From: Acidobacteriota bacterium
GTDB taxonomy: Bacteria; Acidobacteriota; Terriglobia; 20CM-2-55-15
Assembly: GCA_022821145.1 (NCBI GenBank)
Contig: JAJEEE010000027.1
Location: 1-55,169, forward strand
DNA length: 55,169 nucleotides
Direction: 5' to 3'
In this document: piece by piece, positions 2,888-13,142 of the stretch
How positions within the stretch are numbered: position 1 is the first letter of the stretch
How the letters are laid out: every line of letters begins with the position of its first letter
Program-made: the position numbers and the translations under genes
The notes under the pieces: model-generated
The model's input: the letters and a program-made list of their open reading frames with translations, nothing else
What the model was told of the DNA's origin: nothing
Database searches by the model: none

Positions 2888-3391
2888 ATGGCAGCCGACT
2901 ATTTCCTCGGTGAATCGCTGGTAGGCGACGGCAACGAAGTCGCCCACATCGACTTGATCATCGGCTCGAAGACGGGCCCGGCCGGCACCGCGTTCTGCAA
3001 CGCGCTGACGAACAACAAGGACGGCTTCACGTCGCTGCTGGCGGTCGTGACCCCCAACCTGCCCGCGAAGCCGGACACGATTCTGTTCAACAAGGTGACG
3101 ATCAAGGGCGCCAAGCAAGCCGTCCAGATGTTCGGCCCCGCGCAGGCGGCCGTGGCGAAGGCGGTTACCGATTCCGTCGAGGCCGGCGTCATCGACAGGA
3201 GCCAGGCCGACGACCTGTGCGTCCTCGTGGGCGTCTTCATCCATTGGGAAGCCGAGGACGACACGAAGATCTACGACTACAACTACCAGGCCACGAAGGA
3301 GGCCATCGCACGCGCGCTGGGGGGCCAGCCGAGCGTCGACGAGGTCCTGGCGGGAGCCAAGGACGCGAGGCATCCCTTCAGCCCGAAATAG
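2888..3391 (+). CDS. fae: Formaldehyde-activating enzyme
   Basis: The 167-residue cytosolic enzyme condenses formaldehyde with H4MPT to methylene-H4MPT. The sequence is canonical over its whole length: [20 protein letters not shown], the [11 protein letters not shown] segment, TVKIKG-like [16 protein letters not shown], and a C-terminal [17 protein letters not shown]. His20 in the NEVAHID segment corresponds to the proposed catalytic histidine. AAGGAG at 2873-2878 is 9 nt before the ATG, one of the strongest ribosome binding sites in the window and in keeping with the high abundance of Fae in methylotrophs. A GC hairpin follows before mtdB. Confidence 0.96.
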
Positions 3392-3418
3392 CGCGGGCGG
3401 CACGCGCCATATCGGATC

Positions 3419-3446
3419 GACCCGGATGGGCGCGCCTGTCCGGGTC
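3419..3446 (+). other. GC hairpin between fae and mtdB
   Basis: GACCCGG (3419-3425) is perfectly complementary to CCGGGTC (3440-3446), and the 14-nt loop contains the self-complementary GGCGCGCC. There is no T-tract, so it is not a standard terminator. It could stabilise the fae end of the mRNA or reduce read-through into mtdB. Confidence 0.35.
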
Positions 3447-3477
3447 CGAGACCCAGGCTTCGAACCGTCACGATCCC

Positions 3478-4341
3478 GTGCGCAAGCTACTGCTGCAGCT
3501 CGACACCTCTCCGCACGCGAGCGTCTTCGACCGCGTGGTGGCCCATGACGCCGGCGCCGACGCGGTCATGAGCTACGGCGGCGTCACGCCGGAGGCGGTT
3601 CAGGACCTGGTGCACGGGTGCATCTTCACTCGCGGTCCGAAGGATCTGAAGAACACCGCGATCTTTATCGGCGGCACGGACATGGCGGCCGGCGAGGCCC
3701 TGCTCGCCGCGGTCGAGAAAACGTTCTTCGGACCCATGCGCGTGTCGGTGATGCTGGACTCGAACGGTTCGAACACGACGGCGGTGGCCGCCGTCGTCAA
3801 GCTCGAGCGCGCGGCCGGCGGCGTCAACGGCAAGCGGGCGGTGATAACCGGCGGGACCGGACCGGTGGGCGTTCGCGCCGCGGGCCTTCTGGCGGCGCGG
3901 GGGTCCGGCGTCGTCATGACGTCGCGCCGCCTCGAGTACGCGCAGGCGGTCGCCCGAACCACCCAGGATCGTTTTGGCGGATCCATCGGCGCGGTGCACA
4001 TGGCCGGGGCGGCGGCCGCATCGGAAACGCTCGAGGGCGCCCATATCCTGCTCAACGCCGGCGGCGCTGGGGTCTGCATGGTGCCGAAGGCGGCCTGGGC
4101 CGGGCGAGGCAGTCTTCAGGCTGCGGCCGATGTGAACGCCGTGCCGCCGCTCGGTATCGAGGGCGTCGAGGTCACCGACAACGGCGATGCGCGCGAGGGA
4201 GCCGCGGTGTTCGGAGCGCTGGGCGTCGGCGGTTTGAAGATGAAGATCCACAAGAGGTGCATCGGCCGGCTGTTCGAGCGGAACGACCTCGTCCTGGATG
4301 CCGAGGCGATCGATGGGGTGGCCAAGGAGTTCGGTGGGTGA
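3478..4341 (+). CDS. mtdB: Methylene-H4MPT dehydrogenase, NAD(P)-dependent (MtdB type)
   Basis: The 287-residue product starts at GTG 3478, giving V/M-RKLLLQLDTSPHASVFDRVV, the conserved MtdA/MtdB N-terminus. The Rossmann motif GGTGPVG sits near residue 124-130, followed by TSRR, and FIGGTDMAAGE and LDSNGSNTTA match the pterin-binding half. It oxidises methylene-H4MPT to methenyl-H4MPT in the cytosol after Fae. Placement beside fae favours the H4MPT-linked MtdB over the folate-linked MtdA. Other in-frame starts upstream fall inside fae and are not plausible. No strong ribosome binding site is visible. Confidence 0.87.
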   Translation: MRKLLLQLDTSPHASVFDRVVAHDAGADAVMSYGGVTPEAVQDLVHGCIFTRGPKDLKNTAIFIGGTDMAAGEALLAAVEKTFFGPMRVSVMLDSNGSNTTAVAAVVKLERAAGGVNGKRAVITGGTGPVGVRAAGLLAARGSGVVMTSRRLEYAQAVARTTQDRFGGSIGAVHMAGAAAASETLEGAHILLNAGGAGVCMVPKAAWAGRGSLQAAADVNAVPPLGIEGVEVTDNGDAREGAAVFGALGVGGLKMKIHKRCIGRLFERNDLVLDAEAIDGVAKEFGG

Positions 4342-5560: not shown

Positions 5561-5959
5561 GTGACCCGCGAAACGAAACGATTACTGATGAACGCGGTGC
5601 GCACGACGAAGCAGGGCCAGCAGATCAACGTCGGCAAGGACGGGGCGGAGTACCGCGAAATCGTGGAAACGCTCGGGATGCATCCGGAGGATCTGAAGGC
5701 GGTGGGCGCGGTTTCGGGCGGTCGCGTTCGGGTGCGTTCGGAGTACGGGGAAGTGACGTTCAAGTGCGTTGAGGCCAAGAAGGCGCCTCAGGGCATGATC
5801 GTCGTTCCCTACGGGCCTCCCACGTGCCATCTGATGGGCCGTTACACCGATGGGACCGGCATGCCGACATCGAAGGGATGGGAAGTCGAAGTCGAACCGG
5901 TGGCTTCGGAAACCCCGGCGGGGGAGGCCGCGGCCATCGATACCGCGGCCCGGAGGTGA
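5561..5959 (+). CDS. fwdD: Formylmethanofuran dehydrogenase subunit D-like (molybdopterin dinucleotide-binding)
   Basis: The 132-residue protein matches FwdD/FmdD, the small beta-barrel that carries the C-terminal MGD-binding domain split off from subunit B. Diagnostic pieces are GMIVVPYGPPTCHLMGRY and TGMPTSKGWEVEVEP near residues 72-112. It should pair with FwdB to hold the bis-pterin Mo or W cofactor. The characterised methylotroph complex FhcABCD has no counterpart of this subunit as far as I know, so its presence here matters. GTG 5561 is chosen because it agrees with the family N-terminus. A TGcTAAACT extended -10-like string lies at 5524-5532. Confidence 0.82.
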   Translation: MTRETKRLLMNAVRTTKQGQQINVGKDGAEYREIVETLGMHPEDLKAVGAVSGGRVRVRSEYGEVTFKCVEAKKAPQGMIVVPYGPPTCHLMGRYTDGTGMPTSKGWEVEVEPVASETPAGEAAAIDTAARR

Positions 5960-5966
5960 ACGATAC

Positions 5967-6116
5967 ATGCGAAGCGACAACAGCGGTCCGGACGAACAGT
6001 TCACGGTCGTTCCCGACACGGAGGCCGAGAACGTTCCGGCCTGGGAACGTGTTGAGGCCGGACGCTACATGCCTCGGCGCGTGAGGGGAAGCTATCCCGG
6101 ACGCGCCCTCGGGTGA
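5967..6116 (+). CDS. Small conserved-looking protein in the fwd operon (49 aa)
   Basis: ATG 5967 is preceded by GGAGGTGA at 5952-5959, which overlaps the fwdD stop and is an excellent ribosome binding site. The frame gives 49 residues ending in the basic segment RYMPRRVRGSYPGRALG and stopping at 6114-6116. The first half is acidic and Pro/Glu-rich; no Cys, signal or membrane segment is present. I do not recognise a named family. Position between subunits D and B, with a strong ribosome binding site, suggests an accessory subunit or assembly peptide of the complex. Confidence 0.6.
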   Translation: MRSDNSGPDEQFTVVPDTEAENVPAWERVEAGRYMPRRVRGSYPGRALG

Positions 6117-6190
6117 ACGTTCATGTGGCCGCCTCGTGAGGGCGGATTCGAATCCCGAGAGTAACAGTCCATTTCCAGGAGCAGCAGCGG

Positions 6191-7537
6191 GTGAGTCAGA
6201 CATCGAACCTAACGGTCGTCGAGAACGCCACGTGCACGTTCTGCGGATGCGTCTGCGACGACATCGAGCTCCACGCCGACGGCGAGCGCATCGTTCAAGC
6301 CAAGATGGCGTGCAGTCTCGGAAAGTCCTGGTTCCTCAATCACACGGCGGAACGCCTGTACCCGGATGCACTGATCGACGGCCGGGAAGCCACGCTCGAC
6401 GACGCCGTCGAGGCCGCGGCCGAATACTTGCACGCGGCGAACATGCCGCTGGTGTACGGGCTCAGCAACACGACCTGCGAGGCGCAGCGCGAAGCCGTCG
6501 CGCTGGCCGAGTCGATCGGAGGTGTGGTCGACAGCCACACCTCGCTTTGACACGGCCCCACCGAGATTGCCGCCCAGTTGGGGGGCAAGGTCAGTTGCAC
6601 GCTGGGTGAGGTCACCAACCGGGCCGATTTCATCATCTTCTGGGGCGGGAACCCGGCGGAATGCCATCCCCGGCATTTCACCAAGTACAGCCTGACGCCG
6701 AAGGGGCGTTTCGTGCCCGATGGGCGGAAGGGGCGCACGGCGGTTCTGGTCGATATTCGGGAAACGCCCAGCGCGAAGGCAGCCGATATCTTCCTGCAAC
6801 TCCGTCCAAGCAAGGACTTCGAGGTACTGACGACGCTGCGCGCTCTAATAAAGGATCAGAGAGTGGATCCGGCCGCGGTCGCCGAAACCGGCCTGACCCT
6901 GGAACAGTTGCAGGACCTTGTCGACCGGATGAAGAAGGCACGGTTCGGAGCGATGTTCTTCGGGATGGGCCTGTCGATGACCCGCGGCAAGCACATGAAT
7001 TCGGGCGCCCTGCTGAACCTGGCCGCCGAGATGAACGCGTTCACCAAGTTCGTGTGCATGCCGATGCGTGGACACGGCAACGTTACGGGCGCCGACGTGG
7101 TTCTTCGCTACACGACCGGCTATCCGTTCGGCGTCAACCTGTCTCGGGGATACCCCCGCTACAATCCCGGGGAGTTCTCGACGGTCGACCTGCTGGTTCG
7201 CGGCGACAACGACGCGGCCTTCATCCTGGGCGCCGATCCCGGGGCGACGATGCCGCAGCCGGCGATCGAACACCTGGCGTCGATTCCCACCATTGTCCTG
7301 GATCCCAAGGTGACGCATACGAGCCGCCTCTCTCGCGTCCATATCACCACGGCCGTCACGGGCGTGAGCGCGCCGGGGACCGCCTACCGCATGGACGAGA
7401 TCCCGTTGCCGCTGGCGCCGGCTCTCCGGTCGCCGTATCCGACCGACGAGGAGGTCGTGCGTCGCATCCGCCGCGCCGTCGCCCGGCGGCCGGCCTGGCA
7501 GCCGGTCGACGAGAACGTCCGGAGCGCGATCGCGTAG
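6191..7537 (+). CDS. fwdB: Formylmethanofuran dehydrogenase subunit B, predicted selenoprotein (TGA at 6548-6550 = Sec120)
   Basis: Read through one in-frame TGA, this is a 448-residue molybdopterin oxidoreductase catalytic subunit. The N-terminal 4Fe-4S motif CTFCGCVCDD and MACSLG (residues 14-42) is intact. After TSL, the TGA stands where archaeal FwdB has the Mo/W-ligating Cys or Sec (Cys118 in Methanothermobacter, as I recall), and the frame continues with HGPTEIAAQLGG. Then come GGNPAECHPRH and VVDVR-like VLVDIRETPSAKAAD, as in the family. There is no frameshift. A SECIS-like hairpin begins 16 nt after the TGA. GTG 6191 follows AGGAG at 6177-6181. A non-selenium reading would give two useless fragments, 6191-6550 and one restarting at TTG 6578. 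Confidence 0.87.
6567..6588 (+). promoter_or_regulatory. Bacterial SECIS-like hairpin of fwdB
   Basis: TTGCC (6567-6571) pairs with GGCAA (6584-6588) and CCC (6573-6575) with GGG (6580-6582), with one G-G mismatch at 6572/6583. The apical loop is AGTT (6576-6579). It has a G in the first two loop positions, and that G lies 27 nt after the TGA, inside the usual bacterial SECIS spacing of about 16-37 nt. The structure lies wholly within the fwdB coding sequence, as bacterial SECIS elements do. The pairing was done by eye. Confidence 0.75.
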
Positions 7538-7561: not shown

Positions 7562-9202
7562 ATGAGTCCCACAACGCTGCGAGTCACGGGCGGGCGGGTC
7601 TACGATCCCGCGAACGGCGTCGACGGCGCGGTCCGCGACATAGCCATCCGGGATGGCAAGATCGTCGACAGCGTCGACGGCGGACGGACCATCGACGCCT
7701 CCGGAATGGTGATTTTCCCCGGCGGCGTCGACGTTCACTCGCACGTCGCGGGAGCCGCGCTCAATTTCGCCCGCGGATTGACGCCGGAAAACTACCGCGC
7801 GGCCCGCCGGTTCCTCCACGCGCCGGGGCGGCGACAGGGTCTGGGAGGCATCACCCCGACCACGTTCGCGACGGGATACCTGTACGCGGGCATGGGTTGG
7901 ACGACCGTCAACGAAGCGGCCATGCCCGTCTTGACGGCCCGGCACACGCACGAAGAGTTGCACGAGGTTCCGATCATCGACAAGTCGACGCTCGTGTTGA
8001 TGGCCAACAACGAGTTCGTGCTCGACCTCCTGGAAGCCGGAGAAACCGAACGGGCGCGCCACGTGGTCGCCTGGCTGATCTGGGCGGCCAAGGCCTACGG
8101 GGTGAAGGCGGTCAATCCCGGCGGCGTCAACGCGTGGAAGTGGGGCCGGAACGCGCGCGTTCTTCACGAACCGGTCTATGGCTACGAGACGCTGACCCCG
8201 GCGACGATCATCGAGGGTCTGGCCGCCATCGTGGACGACCTCGGGCTTCCGCACCCGGTGCATCTCCATTGCAACAATCTCGGGATTCCGGGCAACGTCG
8301 AAACGACGATCGAGACGATGAAGATCCTGGAGGGCCGGCGCGCGCACCTGGCCCACCTGCAGTTCCACGCCTACGGCGGGGATGACTGGGGCACGATGCG
8401 GTCGGCGGCGGTCGAGGTCGCCGAGGCCTTCAACGCGAACCCGAACCTGACGACGGACGCCGGCGCCGTCCTGTTCGGAGACAGCGTGACCTTGACGGCG
8501 GACGGTCCCTGGCAGCATCTTCTCTACCAGTTGACGGGGCGCAAGTGGGCCAACCTGGACGTGGAGAACGAGACCGGGTGCGGCATCGTTCCCTACGTCT
8601 ACAAGGACCGCAGCCTCGTGAACGCCGTTCAGTGGGCCACCGGCCTCGAGTTGATGCTGTTGATCGACGATCCGTGGCGCGTGCACCTGACGACGGACCA
8701 TCCCAACGGCGGATGTTTCTGGCGCTACCCGGAAATCATCCGGCTTCTGATGGACGCGGAGTTCCGAAAGGAGCAGTTGCGGCAGATCGCGCCCAAGGCC
8801 CGCGAGCGGATCGTCCTCGGCGACCTGGACCGCGAGTACACGCTGTCGGACATCGCCGTTGTGACCGCGGCCGGTCCGGCCCGCGCGCTCGGCCTGACCG
8901 AGAAGGGGCATCTCGGCGTGGGCGCCGACGCCGACGTGACCATATACCCGGGAACGCCCGACGGCGACGGCATACTGTTCTCCTATCCCCGCTACGTATT
9001 GAAGGGCGGCGAGGTGGTGGTCGAGGAGGGGGATGTGCGCGCGGTGACCGAGGGCAAGGAGTTCATCGTCCATCCTCCCTCGGACGAGGGCACGGCCGAA
9101 TACCTCCGGCCGCTGTTCGAGAAGGCCTATACCATGTCCTTCGCCAACTACCCGGTGGAGATCGAACGCGTGAAAGGAGCGGACGTACGCCCGTTACACT
9201 GA
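7562..9202 (+). CDS. fwdA: Formylmethanofuran dehydrogenase subunit A (amidohydrolase)
   Basis: The 546-residue amidohydrolase interconverts formyl-methanofuran (or methylofuran) and formate plus the free amine at a binuclear metal centre. HSH at residues 59-61, Lys182 in VKAVNPGG (the expected carboxylated lysine), HLH at 234-236, HLAH at 262-265 and Asp379 in TTDHPNGG make a complete active site. The length matches FwdA/FhcA. It starts at ATG 7562, 24 nt after fwdB, and ends inside the presumed start of fwdC. With subunit B it forms the two-site CO2/formate machine in methanogens; in methylotroph Fhc only the hydrolase half is thought active. Confidence 0.93.
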   Translation: MSPTTLRVTGGRVYDPANGVDGAVRDIAIRDGKIVDSVDGGRTIDASGMVIFPGGVDVHSHVAGAALNFARGLTPENYRAARRFLHAPGRRQGLGGITPTTFATGYLYAGMGWTTVNEAAMPVLTARHTHEELHEVPIIDKSTLVLMANNEFVLDLLEAGETERARHVVAWLIWAAKAYGVKAVNPGGVNAWKWGRNARVLHEPVYGYETLTPATIIEGLAAIVDDLGLPHPVHLHCNNLGIPGNVETTIETMKILEGRRAHLAHLQFHAYGGDDWGTMRSAAVEVAEAFNANPNLTTDAGAVLFGDSVTLTADGPWQHLLYQLTGRKWANLDVENETGCGIVPYVYKDRSLVNAVQWATGLELMLLIDDPWRVHLTTDHPNGGCFWRYPEIIRLLMDAEFRKEQLRQIAPKARERIVLGDLDREYTLSDIAVVTAAGPARALGLTEKGHLGVGADADVTIYPGTPDGDGILFSYPRYVLKGGEVVVEEGDVRAVTEGKEFIVHPPSDEGTAEYLRPLFEKAYTMSFANYPVEIERVKGADVRPLH

Positions 9203-9999
9203 CCATCAAGGCGACTCCCGTCGTCCCGCTCGAAGCCGAGGCGCTGTCGCCCGACGTCGTTTCCGGACTCGCCCACGACCAGATCCGGTCGCTCCCGGTG
9301 TGGCTGGGCAAGAACCGGCGCCGCCTGGACGAATTCTTCGACGTCGAAGGCGAGAAGAGCGAGGAGCTGCGGATCGTCGGCGACGCTGGAAGAGTGAAGT
9401 GGATCGGCCGCGACATGACGCGCGGCCGGATCGCCGTCGAGGGCCACGCCGGGATGCATCTCGGCTCGCGGATGGCCGGAGGCGCGATCGAGGTTTCCGG
9501 CGACGTCTCGGACTGGTTGGGGGCCGAGATGTCGGGGGGGGCCATCCACGTTCGGGGCAACGCGGGCGGTCAGGTCGGCGCCGCCTACCGGGGCAGCCTG
9601 GCGGGCATGCGGGACGGCACGATCGTCATCGACGGACGGGCCGGCCTGGAAGTCGGCCAGCGCATGAAGCGCGGCACCATCGTCGTTTCCGGAGGCGTCC
9701 GCGATTTCGCGGGTCTGGAGATGCGAGGCGGCACGATCGTCCTCGGCGCGGCGGAGTTGCGGACCGGGGCGTGGATGCTGCGCGGCACGATCGTCGTGTT
9801 GCAGTCGATTCCGATCCTCCCGACCTTCGCGTACGCGTCCACGTACAGCCCGACGTTCCTCGGCCTGTACGCGCAGCGCCTGAAACGTCTCGGAGTGGAG
9901 ATTCCCGTCGACGAGCACGCGGGGGCGTACCGGCGCTATACGGGGGACGCGGCCATTCCCGGCAAGGGTGAGCTGCTCGTCTGGGAGCCGCGGGGCTGA
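9199..9999 (+). CDS. fwdC: Formylmethanofuran dehydrogenase subunit C
   Basis: The protein of about 266 residues carries the repeated Gly-X-X-Gly-X-Gly beta-helix also seen in the glutamate synthase C-terminal domain: GRIAVEGHAGMHLG, GGAIEVSGDVSDWLG, GTIVIDGRAGLEVG, GTIVVSGGVRDFAG. It is the scaffold subunit bridging A, B and D. The start is a problem: family alignment places it near 9193-9205, where the only near-cognate codon is CTG 9199. No in-frame ATG, GTG or TTG lies nearby. AAAGGAG at 9173-9179 is rather distant from 9199. The gene overlaps the fwdA stop. Confidence 0.88.
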   Translation: MTIKATPVVPLEAEALSPDVVSGLAHDQIRSLPVWLGKNRRRLDEFFDVEGEKSEELRIVGDAGRVKWIGRDMTRGRIAVEGHAGMHLGSRMAGGAIEVSGDVSDWLGAEMSGGAIHVRGNAGGQVGAAYRGSLAGMRDGTIVIDGRAGLEVGQRMKRGTIVVSGGVRDFAGLEMRGGTIVLGAAELRTGAWMLRGTIVVLQSIPILPTFAYASTYSPTFLGLYAQRLKRLGVEIPVDEHAGAYRRYTGDAAIPGKGELLVWEPRG

Positions 10000-10006
10000 A
10001 GGACCC

Positions 10007-10948
10007 ATGGACACCAAGGAACAGGCGTCGCCCCTCATCGAGCACAAGGGCGTCCGTATCGAGGACACGTTCGCCGAGGCGTTCGGCATGCGCGGGGCCC
10101 GCGTCGTCATCACGGCGCGTTCGCCGGAGTGGGCGCGTACAGCCGCGCAGTCCCTGACCGGGTTCGCCACGTCCGTCATCGGATGCAAGCTGGAAGCCGG
10201 CATCGAAGCGGACTGGCCGGCCCGGGAAACCCCGGATGGACGCCCGGGGGTCAGCGTTTTGGTGTTCGCCTTCGATGCCGACGGTCTCGCCAAAAGGCTG
10301 ATCGAGCGGATCGGCCAGACGGTGCTCACGTGTCCGACGACCGCGTGTTTCGACGGATTGCCCGACGCCGAGGACCGAGTCAACGTCGGCGGCATGCTGC
10401 GCCACTTCGGCGACAGGTTCCAGTCCAGCAAGTTCCTCGACGGCAAACGGTACTGGCGGATTCCGGTCATGGAAGGCGAGTTCCTCATCGAGGAGTCGTT
10501 CGGGGTCCGGAAAGCGATCGGCGGCGGCAACATGTTGATCCTGGCCCGCGACGCGGACGCCGCTCTGGAGGCCGCCGAAGCGGCCGTCCGAGCCATGCGC
10601 GGCGTTCGCGGGATCGTCCTCCCGTTTCCCGGAGGCGTCGTCCGCAGTGGAAGCAAGGTGGGCGCGCGGCACTACAAGAAAATGATCGCGTCCACGAACG
10701 ACGCCTACTGCCCGACGCTCAAGGGCCGGCTGGGGCCGGAGTCGGCGCTGTCCGAGGAGGTCAATTCCGTCCTGGAAATCGTAGTCGACGGCCTGGACCG
10801 CGCCGCCATCGAGGCCGCGCTCCGCGCAGGCGTCGACGCCGCGTGCCGCGCGGGGGTGGTGGCCATTTCGGCCGGAAACTACGGCGGCAAGCTCGGCAAG
10901 CACCACTTCCATCTGCGAGAGCTCGTTCCGGCGAAGCCCGAAGCCTGA
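10007..10948 (+). CDS. ftr: Formylmethanofuran:H4MPT formyltransferase
   Basis: The 313-residue protein (Ftr/FhcD) transfers the formyl group between formyl-H4MPT and methanofuran or methylofuran. Recognisable family segments are IEDTFAEAFGM at the N-terminus, CPTTACFDGL, GGMLRHFGDRFQSSK and GGKLGKHHFHLREL at the C-terminus. The ATG start lies 7 nt after fwdC, so they are one operon. In the bacterial Fhc complex this protein is subunit D. It closes the C1 module; the next gene has a separate promoter. Confidence 0.95.
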   Translation: MDTKEQASPLIEHKGVRIEDTFAEAFGMRGARVVITARSPEWARTAAQSLTGFATSVIGCKLEAGIEADWPARETPDGRPGVSVLVFAFDADGLAKRLIERIGQTVLTCPTTACFDGLPDAEDRVNVGGMLRHFGDRFQSSKFLDGKRYWRIPVMEGEFLIEESFGVRKAIGGGNMLILARDADAALEAAEAAVRAMRGVRGIVLPFPGGVVRSGSKVGARHYKKMIASTNDAYCPTLKGRLGPESALSEEVNSVLEIVVDGLDRAAIEAALRAGVDAACRAGVVAISAGNYGGKLGKHHFHLRELVPAKPEA

Positions 10949-11945: not shown

Positions 11946-13142
11946 ATGGATCTGCCGAACCGACAGGGCCACCTGACGTATTCCACGCTGGTTCATCCCG
12001 GCGACACCTGGGAGGACATGTGGGAAAGCGTGCGGACGTACGTGCCCAGGGTGAAGGAGCGGGTCGCGCCGAACGAGCCGTTCGGCGTGTCCCTCCGCTT
12101 GTCGGCCTCATCGGCCGAAACGCTGGTCAATGACTCGAAGGCGCGCGACGAGCTCAAGAAGTTCCTCGCCGACAACGACATGTACCTGTACACGGTCAAC
12201 GCGTTTCCGTACGGGCCGTTCAAGGGGCGCATCGTCAAGGAAGAGGTGTACGAACCGGACTGGCGCAGCCGGGAGCGCACCGAATACACGATCAACGTGG
12301 CCGAGGTTCTCGGCGACGTGGCGCCGGAGGGGTCGGCGCCGTCGATCCAGAGCGCGCCGCTGGGGTTCAAGCCGCGCGTGACGGGCCCGGACGTGGTGTC
12401 CCGCTACACCGAGAACGTCCTGCGGGTCGTTTCGCACCTGGTCGGGCTCGAGGCGCGAACCGGCCGCGCCGTCGGCCTGGCGCTGGAACCGGAGCCCTAC
12501 TGCTTCCTGGAAACGACCGACGAGGCCGTCGACTACTTCACGAACCACCTCTACACGGGCGCCGCGGCCGAGACCGTGGCGCGGTCGGCGGGGATTCCGA
12601 TTTCCGAGGCGCAGGTCGCGTTGCGCCGGCACGTGGGCGTCGTCTACGACATCTGCCACCAGGCCGTGGAGTACGAGGACATCGCCGCGTCGCTCCAGAA
12701 ACTGGTCGACGCCGGCATCCCGGTGTTCAAGCTGCAGGAAGCGGCGGCCGTCCATGTCCCCGAGGTCACCCAGGAAACCGTCGACGCCCTGGCGAAGTAC
12801 GCCGCGACGATCTACCTGACCCAGACGATCGAGAAGAAGGACGGCCGGTTCACGAAGTTCCTGAACCTGGAAGACGCGTTCGAGGCGTGGCGGACCGATC
12901 CGGGGCCGCGGGAATGGCGCACGCACATCCACGTTCCCGTGTTTCTCGACGACCTGGGACCGTTCCGGACCACCCGGTTCGCGATCGAGGACGCGCTGCG
13001 GTTCCACAAGGCGAATCCGCTGTCGCGCCAACTCGAGATCGAGACGTATACGTGGGACGTTCTTCCCGACAATCTCAAGACCGGCGATATCGTCGACTAC
13101 GTCTGCCGCGAGATCGAGTGGGTGCGGGAGCAGGTCGTCTAG
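11946..13142 (+). CDS. EboE-like TIM-barrel protein
   Basis: The 398-residue protein opens with LTYSTLVHPGDTWEDMW and contains SLRLSASSAETL, TVNAFPYGPFKG and VYEPDWRSRERTEY, all features of the EboE family of sugar-phosphate-isomerase-like TIM barrels. Likely metal ligands include Glu in ALEPEPYCFLET and the VYDICHQAVEYED segment. EboE belongs to a conserved operon tied to prenylated precursor metabolism or transport in cyanobacteria and algae, but its reaction is unknown. No other ebo gene is seen here. ATG 11946 lies 1 nt after the preceding stop. Confidence 0.78.
   Translation: MDLPNRQGHLTYSTLVHPGDTWEDMWESVRTYVPRVKERVAPNEPFGVSLRLSASSAETLVNDSKARDELKKFLADNDMYLYTVNAFPYGPFKGRIVKEEVYEPDWRSRERTEYTINVAEVLGDVAPEGSAPSIQSAPLGFKPRVTGPDVVSRYTENVLRVVSHLVGLEARTGRAVGLALEPEPYCFLETTDEAVDYFTNHLYTGAAAETVARSAGIPISEAQVALRRHVGVVYDICHQAVEYEDIAASLQKLVDAGIPVFKLQEAAAVHVPEVTQETVDALAKYAATIYLTQTIEKKDGRFTKFLNLEDAFEAWRTDPGPREWRTHIHVPVFLDDLGPFRTTRFAIEDALRFHKANPLSRQLEIETYTWDVLPDNLKTGDIVDYVCREIEWVREQVV

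Follow-up and report, generated by a model that had tools for sequence, protein, structure and literature searches.

A predicted selenocysteine-containing formylmethanofuran dehydrogenase and a probable second, small selenoprotein in a C1 gene cluster of Acidobacteriota

Whether the TGA inside an apparently complete fwdB gene of an Acidobacteriota bacterium is decoded as selenocysteine (Sec), and what the short reading frame just upstream of that gene encodes, are the questions raised by this locus. Herein, we analyzed a DNA stretch of 55,169 nucleotides (contig JAJEEE010000027.1, assembly GCA_022821145.1), hereafter the window. Our reading, drawn from sequence comparison and given a probability of roughly 85%, is that the cluster encodes a metal-dependent, Sec-containing FwdDBAC complex together with a dedicated small Sec protein beside fwdD. 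The features discussed are listed in Table 1.

Table 1. Positions of the genes, predicted Sec codons, and hairpins in the window
Feature	Position	Strand	Remarks
fae, formaldehyde-activating enzyme	2888..3391	+	TIGR03126, 251 bits
Methylene-H4MPT dehydrogenase-like gene	3217..4341	+	PF09176, 118.9 bits
fwdD, molybdopterin dinucleotide binding subunit	5561..5959	+	PF01568, 46.8 bits
Small selenoprotein gene, predicted, 65 aa, Sec at residue 50	5967..6164	+	conserved in Sec-fwdB genomes
Predicted Sec50 codon, TGA, of the small gene	6114..6116	+	context GRALG-U-TF
SECIS hairpin of the small gene	6129..6145	+	6-bp stem, loop CGUGA 6135-6139
fwdB, formylmethanofuran dehydrogenase catalytic subunit	6191..7537	+	448 aa, Sec at residue 120
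Predicted Sec120 codon, TGA, of fwdB	6548..6550	+	predicted W/Mo ligand
SECIS hairpin of fwdB	6569..6586	+	7-bp stem 6569-6575/6580-6586, loop AGUU 6576-6579
fwdA, amidohydrolase subunit	7562..9202	+	TIGR03121, 692 bits
fwdC, start approximate	9193..9999	+	TIGR03122, 257 bits
ftr/fhcD, formylmethanofuran:H4MPT formyltransferase	9968..10948	+	NF002554, 439 bits

The in-frame TGA of fwdB and its surroundings

The first-pass annotation of this DNA had described a single TGA in an otherwise open frame for a full FwdB, the residues on both sides of it, and its correspondence to the metal-ligand Cys of archaeal FwdB, and each of these points was recovered in our analysis. The TGA is codon 120 of a frame that opens with GTG behind AGGAG at 6177-6181, and its context reads DSHTSL-U-HGPTEIAAQ. 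With the TGA read as a residue, the product scored 484.5 bits against TIGR03129 (cut-off 327.8); it had no Pfam match, and its identity was taken from NCBIfam instead. Archaeal FwdB structures matched over the full length, the best three with 354-371 bits, and U120-HGP aligned with Cys118 of 5t5i (ASVCHGPS), the W-ligand position. The four FeS-cluster Cys residues (query residues 15, 18, 22, and 41) were present in every Sec relative, and the PMRGH motif, which includes Arg288 of 5t5i, was kept in the alignment.

All 97 close relatives from Planctomycetota and Acidobacteriota carried TGA at this codon, and none had TGC or TGT, indicating that the TGA is not a chance event. These relatives, at about 71% identity or more, comprised 80 named loci from GTDB species genomes together with genus and phylum samples, a few of them being one locus reached twice. 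Although most were metagenome assemblies, so many of them agree that sequencing error is excluded. The stop codon of fwdB itself was mixed, with 37 TGA, 31 TAG, and 20 TAA in the non-redundant loci.

Among more distant FwdB homologues, the ligand codon was Cys in 14, Gly in five, and Thr in two cases, and Ser was also met. Second FwdB copies were seen as well, lying beside the Sec copy and carrying either Cys (L083:3832) or Thr (L066:6892 and L070:6961) at the ligand site. The Thr-type copies are presumably inactive or metal-free.

A hairpin had been placed 16 nt past the TGA at first pass. It is real, and the stem in the window is two pairs longer, which accounts for that start. Unguided consensus folding of 43 relatives with RNAalifold returned the 7-bp stem, whose loop lies 25 nt from the TGA, and the hairpin falls within the published constraints for bacterial SECIS elements (AGUU, 7 bp, 25 nt, -16.9). 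The window's own stem contains one G-G mismatch, and in L075 a C-G pair is replaced by U-A with a change from Gly to Ser. Because the stem hardly varies, covariation was weak, too weak to stand alone, and the fixation of synonymous codons was therefore used. The Gln129 codon in the hairpin was CAG in 97/97 sequences and the Leu130 codon was TTG in 95/95, each showing the lowest synonymous entropy of its class (88 two-fold and 50 six-fold conserved fwdB codons, respectively); the two Ala codons before Gln129 were likewise the lowest of 119 four-fold ones. The AAQLGG peptide is also present in the Thr-type paralogues of L066 and L070, but there CTT or CTC stands in place of TTG. The clade-wide TGA, the presence of selA, selB, selC, and selD (see below), and a hairpin of the published type lend strong support to the proposal of the first-pass annotation that UGA means Sec in an active-type FwdB; on this evidence, the TGA at 6548-6550 almost certainly specifies selenocysteine.

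The genes for FwdD, FwdA, and FwdC all share an operon with fwdB. A fwdD homologue was found near Sec-fwdB in 75 of 80 loci, and the fwdD of the window scored 78 bits against the FwdD model NF042908, under its narrow cut-off of 175. The match to the fwdC model starts close to residue 217 in the ORF at 8545-9999; the exact start of the dehydrogenase-like gene is unsure, its listed ORF overlapping fae. Homology supports a reading of the cluster as a tetrahydromethanopterin (H4MPT) C1 module, in which FwdDBAC stands together with Ftr, Fae, and a methylene-H4MPT dehydrogenase-like gene. Directly downstream of it lies an EboE-like metabolite traffic gene (11946-13142, plus strand; NF035939, 410 bits).

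Archaeal complexes typically contain the ferredoxin-type electron subunits FwdF and FwdG. No polyferredoxin subunit or ferredoxin domain was seen among the scanned ORFs, which were a subset of those in the window, and in the fwdB-fwdA stretch of L035 and L065, read by eye, the genes differ and none looked redox-like. The bacterial FwdB relatives may use an electron carrier other than FwdF/FwdG. In a FwdB tree built with a quick method and with partly weak support, the Acidobacteriota sequences (L017-L026, L034, L036, L041, and L064) appeared at several separate points among Planctomycetota, a pattern that suggests repeated lateral transfer of Sec-FwdB between the phyla.

Comparison with known FwdB proteins

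A bacterial Sec-FwdB had been called possibly undescribed at first pass, but it was already published in 2016. That paper (Kim et al., PMC4807772) describes a Sec-containing fmdB in a Rhodopirellula-type planctomycete and in two unclassified bacteria, with the operon order fmdD-B-A-C and a Cys fmdB copy in the same genome. The Rhodopirellula sp. P2 fmdB agrees with the window gene in enzyme, operon order, and Sec site, and for both of them some genomes have a homologue with Cys or Gly, whereas the former belongs to Planctomycetes and the latter to Acidobacteriota. What is added here to the known enzyme is its extension to Acidobacteriota, the SECIS evidence, and the finding that this clade strictly lacks Cys at the site and never falls back to that residue.

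The Sec-FwdB of methanogens (TIGR03129; Methanopyrus kandleri) shares with the window the Sec ligand, the UHGP motif, the four FeS Cys residues, and the gene set fwdD-B-A-C. The SECIS element of the window is of the bacterial type and lies within the gene, whereas that of methanogens is of the archaeal type. Unlike methanogen FwdB, the window clade has Sec in every member, and unlike in methanogens, no fwdF/fwdG polyferredoxin genes were seen nearby among the ORFs scanned.

The contrast with the methylotroph FhcB proteins, which the first-pass annotation had described as lacking a functional metal site, holds. FhcB of Methylorubrum extorquens (6s6y), a distant homologue that shares the H4MPT pathway with the window FwdB, matched only weakly, with 56 bits over residues 61-156, and the window protein falls outside the FhcB class, in which the metal site is lost and which stands close to 6s6y. 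According to a survey, FhcB lacks the Mo/W-bisPGD cofactor (PMC10100899).

A second TGA between fwdD and fwdB

About 430 nt upstream of the fwdB TGA lies another candidate Sec codon, absent from the first-pass annotation. The ORF at 5967-6116, with an ATG start and the strong Shine-Dalgarno sequence GGAGGTGA at 5952-5959, seems to end in TGA, as does its counterpart in 90/90 loci. Its frame runs on past this codon in conserved form, ...MPRRxRGSxxGRxLG-U-(T/S/A)F-x-x-P. In all 89 non-redundant loci, this codon was TGA and the second residue after it was Phe, with TTC and TTT both in use; the following in-frame stop of the gene was mixed (42 TGA, 32 TAA, and 15 TAG). As these loci are related by descent, their counts do not amount to independent trials; nevertheless, the mixed stops nearby, with which the constant TGA contrasts, serve as an internal control. 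The peptide is conserved at the amino-acid level, and synonymous change is free.

This TGA is also followed by a hairpin. The distance from TGA to loop was 18 nt in the window and in most loci and 21 nt in the others, and the loop elsewhere is mostly [A/G]GU[U/C]C, so that the CGUGA of the window departs from the common GGU[U/C]C. Two-sided compensatory change was found at one pair in 16 of 42 sequences, and the covariation score was reached in none of 500 shuffles. Like the elements of known prokaryotic selenoproteins, the hairpin is an ordinary bacterial SECIS, within the published constraints (CGUGA, 6 bp, 18 nt, -10.3). From these alignments, the small gene is very probably the second selenoprotein gene of the locus.

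The small protein had no Pfam, NCBIfam, or PDB family match, and 40 members together gave no convincing NCBIfam model. We found no Cys homologue, and a tblastn search against plasmids returned nothing. Its structure model was of low confidence and uninformative (pLDDT 64, pTM 0.35). Since there is neither a recognizable fold nor a Cys homologue, the function of the protein is unreadable from homology. A 2026 inventory lists 119 families of prokaryotic selenoproteins (PMC13188914); compared by description within the open-access literature, 0/119 are described with a GRxLGUxF motif or a link to Fwd. The main text of PMC4807772 says nothing of a small selenoprotein in the fmdD-fmdB interval. The family, apparently new and undescribed, would enlarge the prokaryotic selenoproteome by one. 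Because gene-finding programs take the UGA as a stop, the gene is overlooked or cut short.

Co-occurrence, proposed function, and alternative readings

Across the searched samples of Planctomycetota and Acidobacteriota, the small gene was present in all 16 genomes with Sec-FwdB and in 0 of the 772 others. Among 392 Planctomycetota genomes it was found in 10/10 with Sec-FwdB and 0/382 of the rest, each match having an E-value below 1e-16 and one TGA; the weaker matches (E above 9e-4) were partial and look like chance, and 35 genomes of this phylum with only other FwdB homologues gave no convincing match. Among 396 Acidobacteriota genomes the figures were 6/6 and 0/390. Where the sole FwdB homologue of a sampled genome was the Cys or Gly form, the small gene was not found. 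For loci apparently without the gene, a copy turned up nearby or on another contig. In G436 (Pirellulaceae) it follows ftr-fwdD, apart from fwdB, with its TGA kept, and in four loci (L045, L046, L066, and L070) it still adjoins fwdD although Sec-fwdB is about 1.8 kb away.

We infer the following scheme. The locus would encode an archaeal-type, metal-dependent FwdDBAC within the tetrahydromethanopterin C1 cluster. SelB and tRNA-Sec would read the UGA at 6548 as Sec120 under the direction of the in-gene SECIS hairpin, and the Sec120 selenol, by analogy with what is established for archaeal Fwd, would be the axial W/Mo ligand. FwdA would release formate from formyl-methanofuran, or a bacterial analogue, by hydrolysis, and at the Se-metal site FwdB would oxidize this formate, yielding CO2, or catalyze the reverse; the presence of Fae favors the oxidative direction. 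The 65-residue protein, with Sec50 inserted into the GRxLG-U-(T/S/A)F motif through its own SECIS, is probably a small subunit, or else a maturation factor, reserved for the Sec-type Fwd complex; most likely it would act beside FwdD/FwdB, its selenol serving in redox chemistry or at the metal site. Encoded with fwdD, whose product binds the metal cofactor, it could work at that site or in the assembly of the site, or carry electrons instead of the polyferredoxins, although all of these roles have less support than that of Sec120. Somewhat better than even odds may be given to the broader view that the Sec form of bacterial Fwd is a two-selenium system, which needs the 65-residue selenoprotein, at or near the metal site, to act as a redox partner, to donate a ligand, or to aid maturation. 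The small protein matters more than Sec-FwdB: none of the solved archaeal Fwd complexes offers a counterpart to its sequence, and it could help to explain how an archaeal C1 enzyme is run apparently without the archaeal ferredoxin subunits.

Could the small gene instead encode a real selenoprotein whose function is unrelated to Fwd, carried along in the same mobile block? The block does seem mobile between phyla, with Acidobacteriota at separate places among Planctomycetota. Nevertheless, the strict co-occurrence held even where the block was split, and the absence beside sole Cys or Gly forms also speaks against simple co-inheritance, which we regard as unlikely.

A function of the small ORF as a selenium-sensing leader, in which ribosomes reading through the UGA at ample selenium would end near the fwdB start and switch on fwdB translation, is quite improbable. 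The spacing fits such a device, as the read-through stop at 6162-6164 is just 26 nt before the fwdB GTG and the two UGAs are 383-621 nt apart in most loci. But a leader is hard to reconcile with a peptide conserved in its amino acids rather than its codons, with the distance of about 1.8 kb in the four loci named above, or with the separate locus in G436, and it was mostly rejected on peptide conservation and placement. Because the small gene stays by fwdD, the function of its product would be tied to the Fwd complex rather than to the control of fwdB.

The preferred reading, of two Sec codons, further requires decoding by SelB and tRNA-Sec, and not by near-cognate read-through or a reassigned UGA. 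A search of the genome for the Sec genes, as the first-pass annotation had proposed, recovered all four: the window genome (99% complete) contains selA (545 bits), selB (380 bits), selD (360 bits), and a tRNA-Sec gene (selC) with the anticodon TCA. Among 40 other genomes with a TGA-containing fwdB, 39 had selB over the curated cut-off, versus 2 of 14 control genomes; G399, the one exception, gave no selB match, perhaps through incompleteness. TGA is also the ordinary stop of 9 of the 12 genes in the cluster, the commonest one there, indicating that UGA is not globally reassigned. With SelB-type hairpins at both sites in addition, decoding by other means is very improbable. That either TGA is a sequencing error, a nonsense mutation, or a mark of a pseudogene, or that fwdB is made as two chains from a possible restart at the TTG at 6578 in the ORF list, is scarcely credible. 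Conservation in two phyla already refutes it, with the TGA in 97 fwdB relatives and in 89/89 non-redundant upstream loci, an intact frame before and after the codon, and the whole Sec machinery present.

The same genome contains, at L020 (C67 of G000), a homologue of the formate dehydrogenase alpha subunit with an in-frame UGA near 1542, the predicted third selenoprotein of the genome. Its hairpin, GGTGGCC-AGTCT-GGCCGCC with an AGUCU loop, resembles that of fwdB. The spacing from UGA to loop within this one genome is 18 nt for the small gene and for FdhA versus 25 nt for fwdB, a wide range that one SelB would have to serve.
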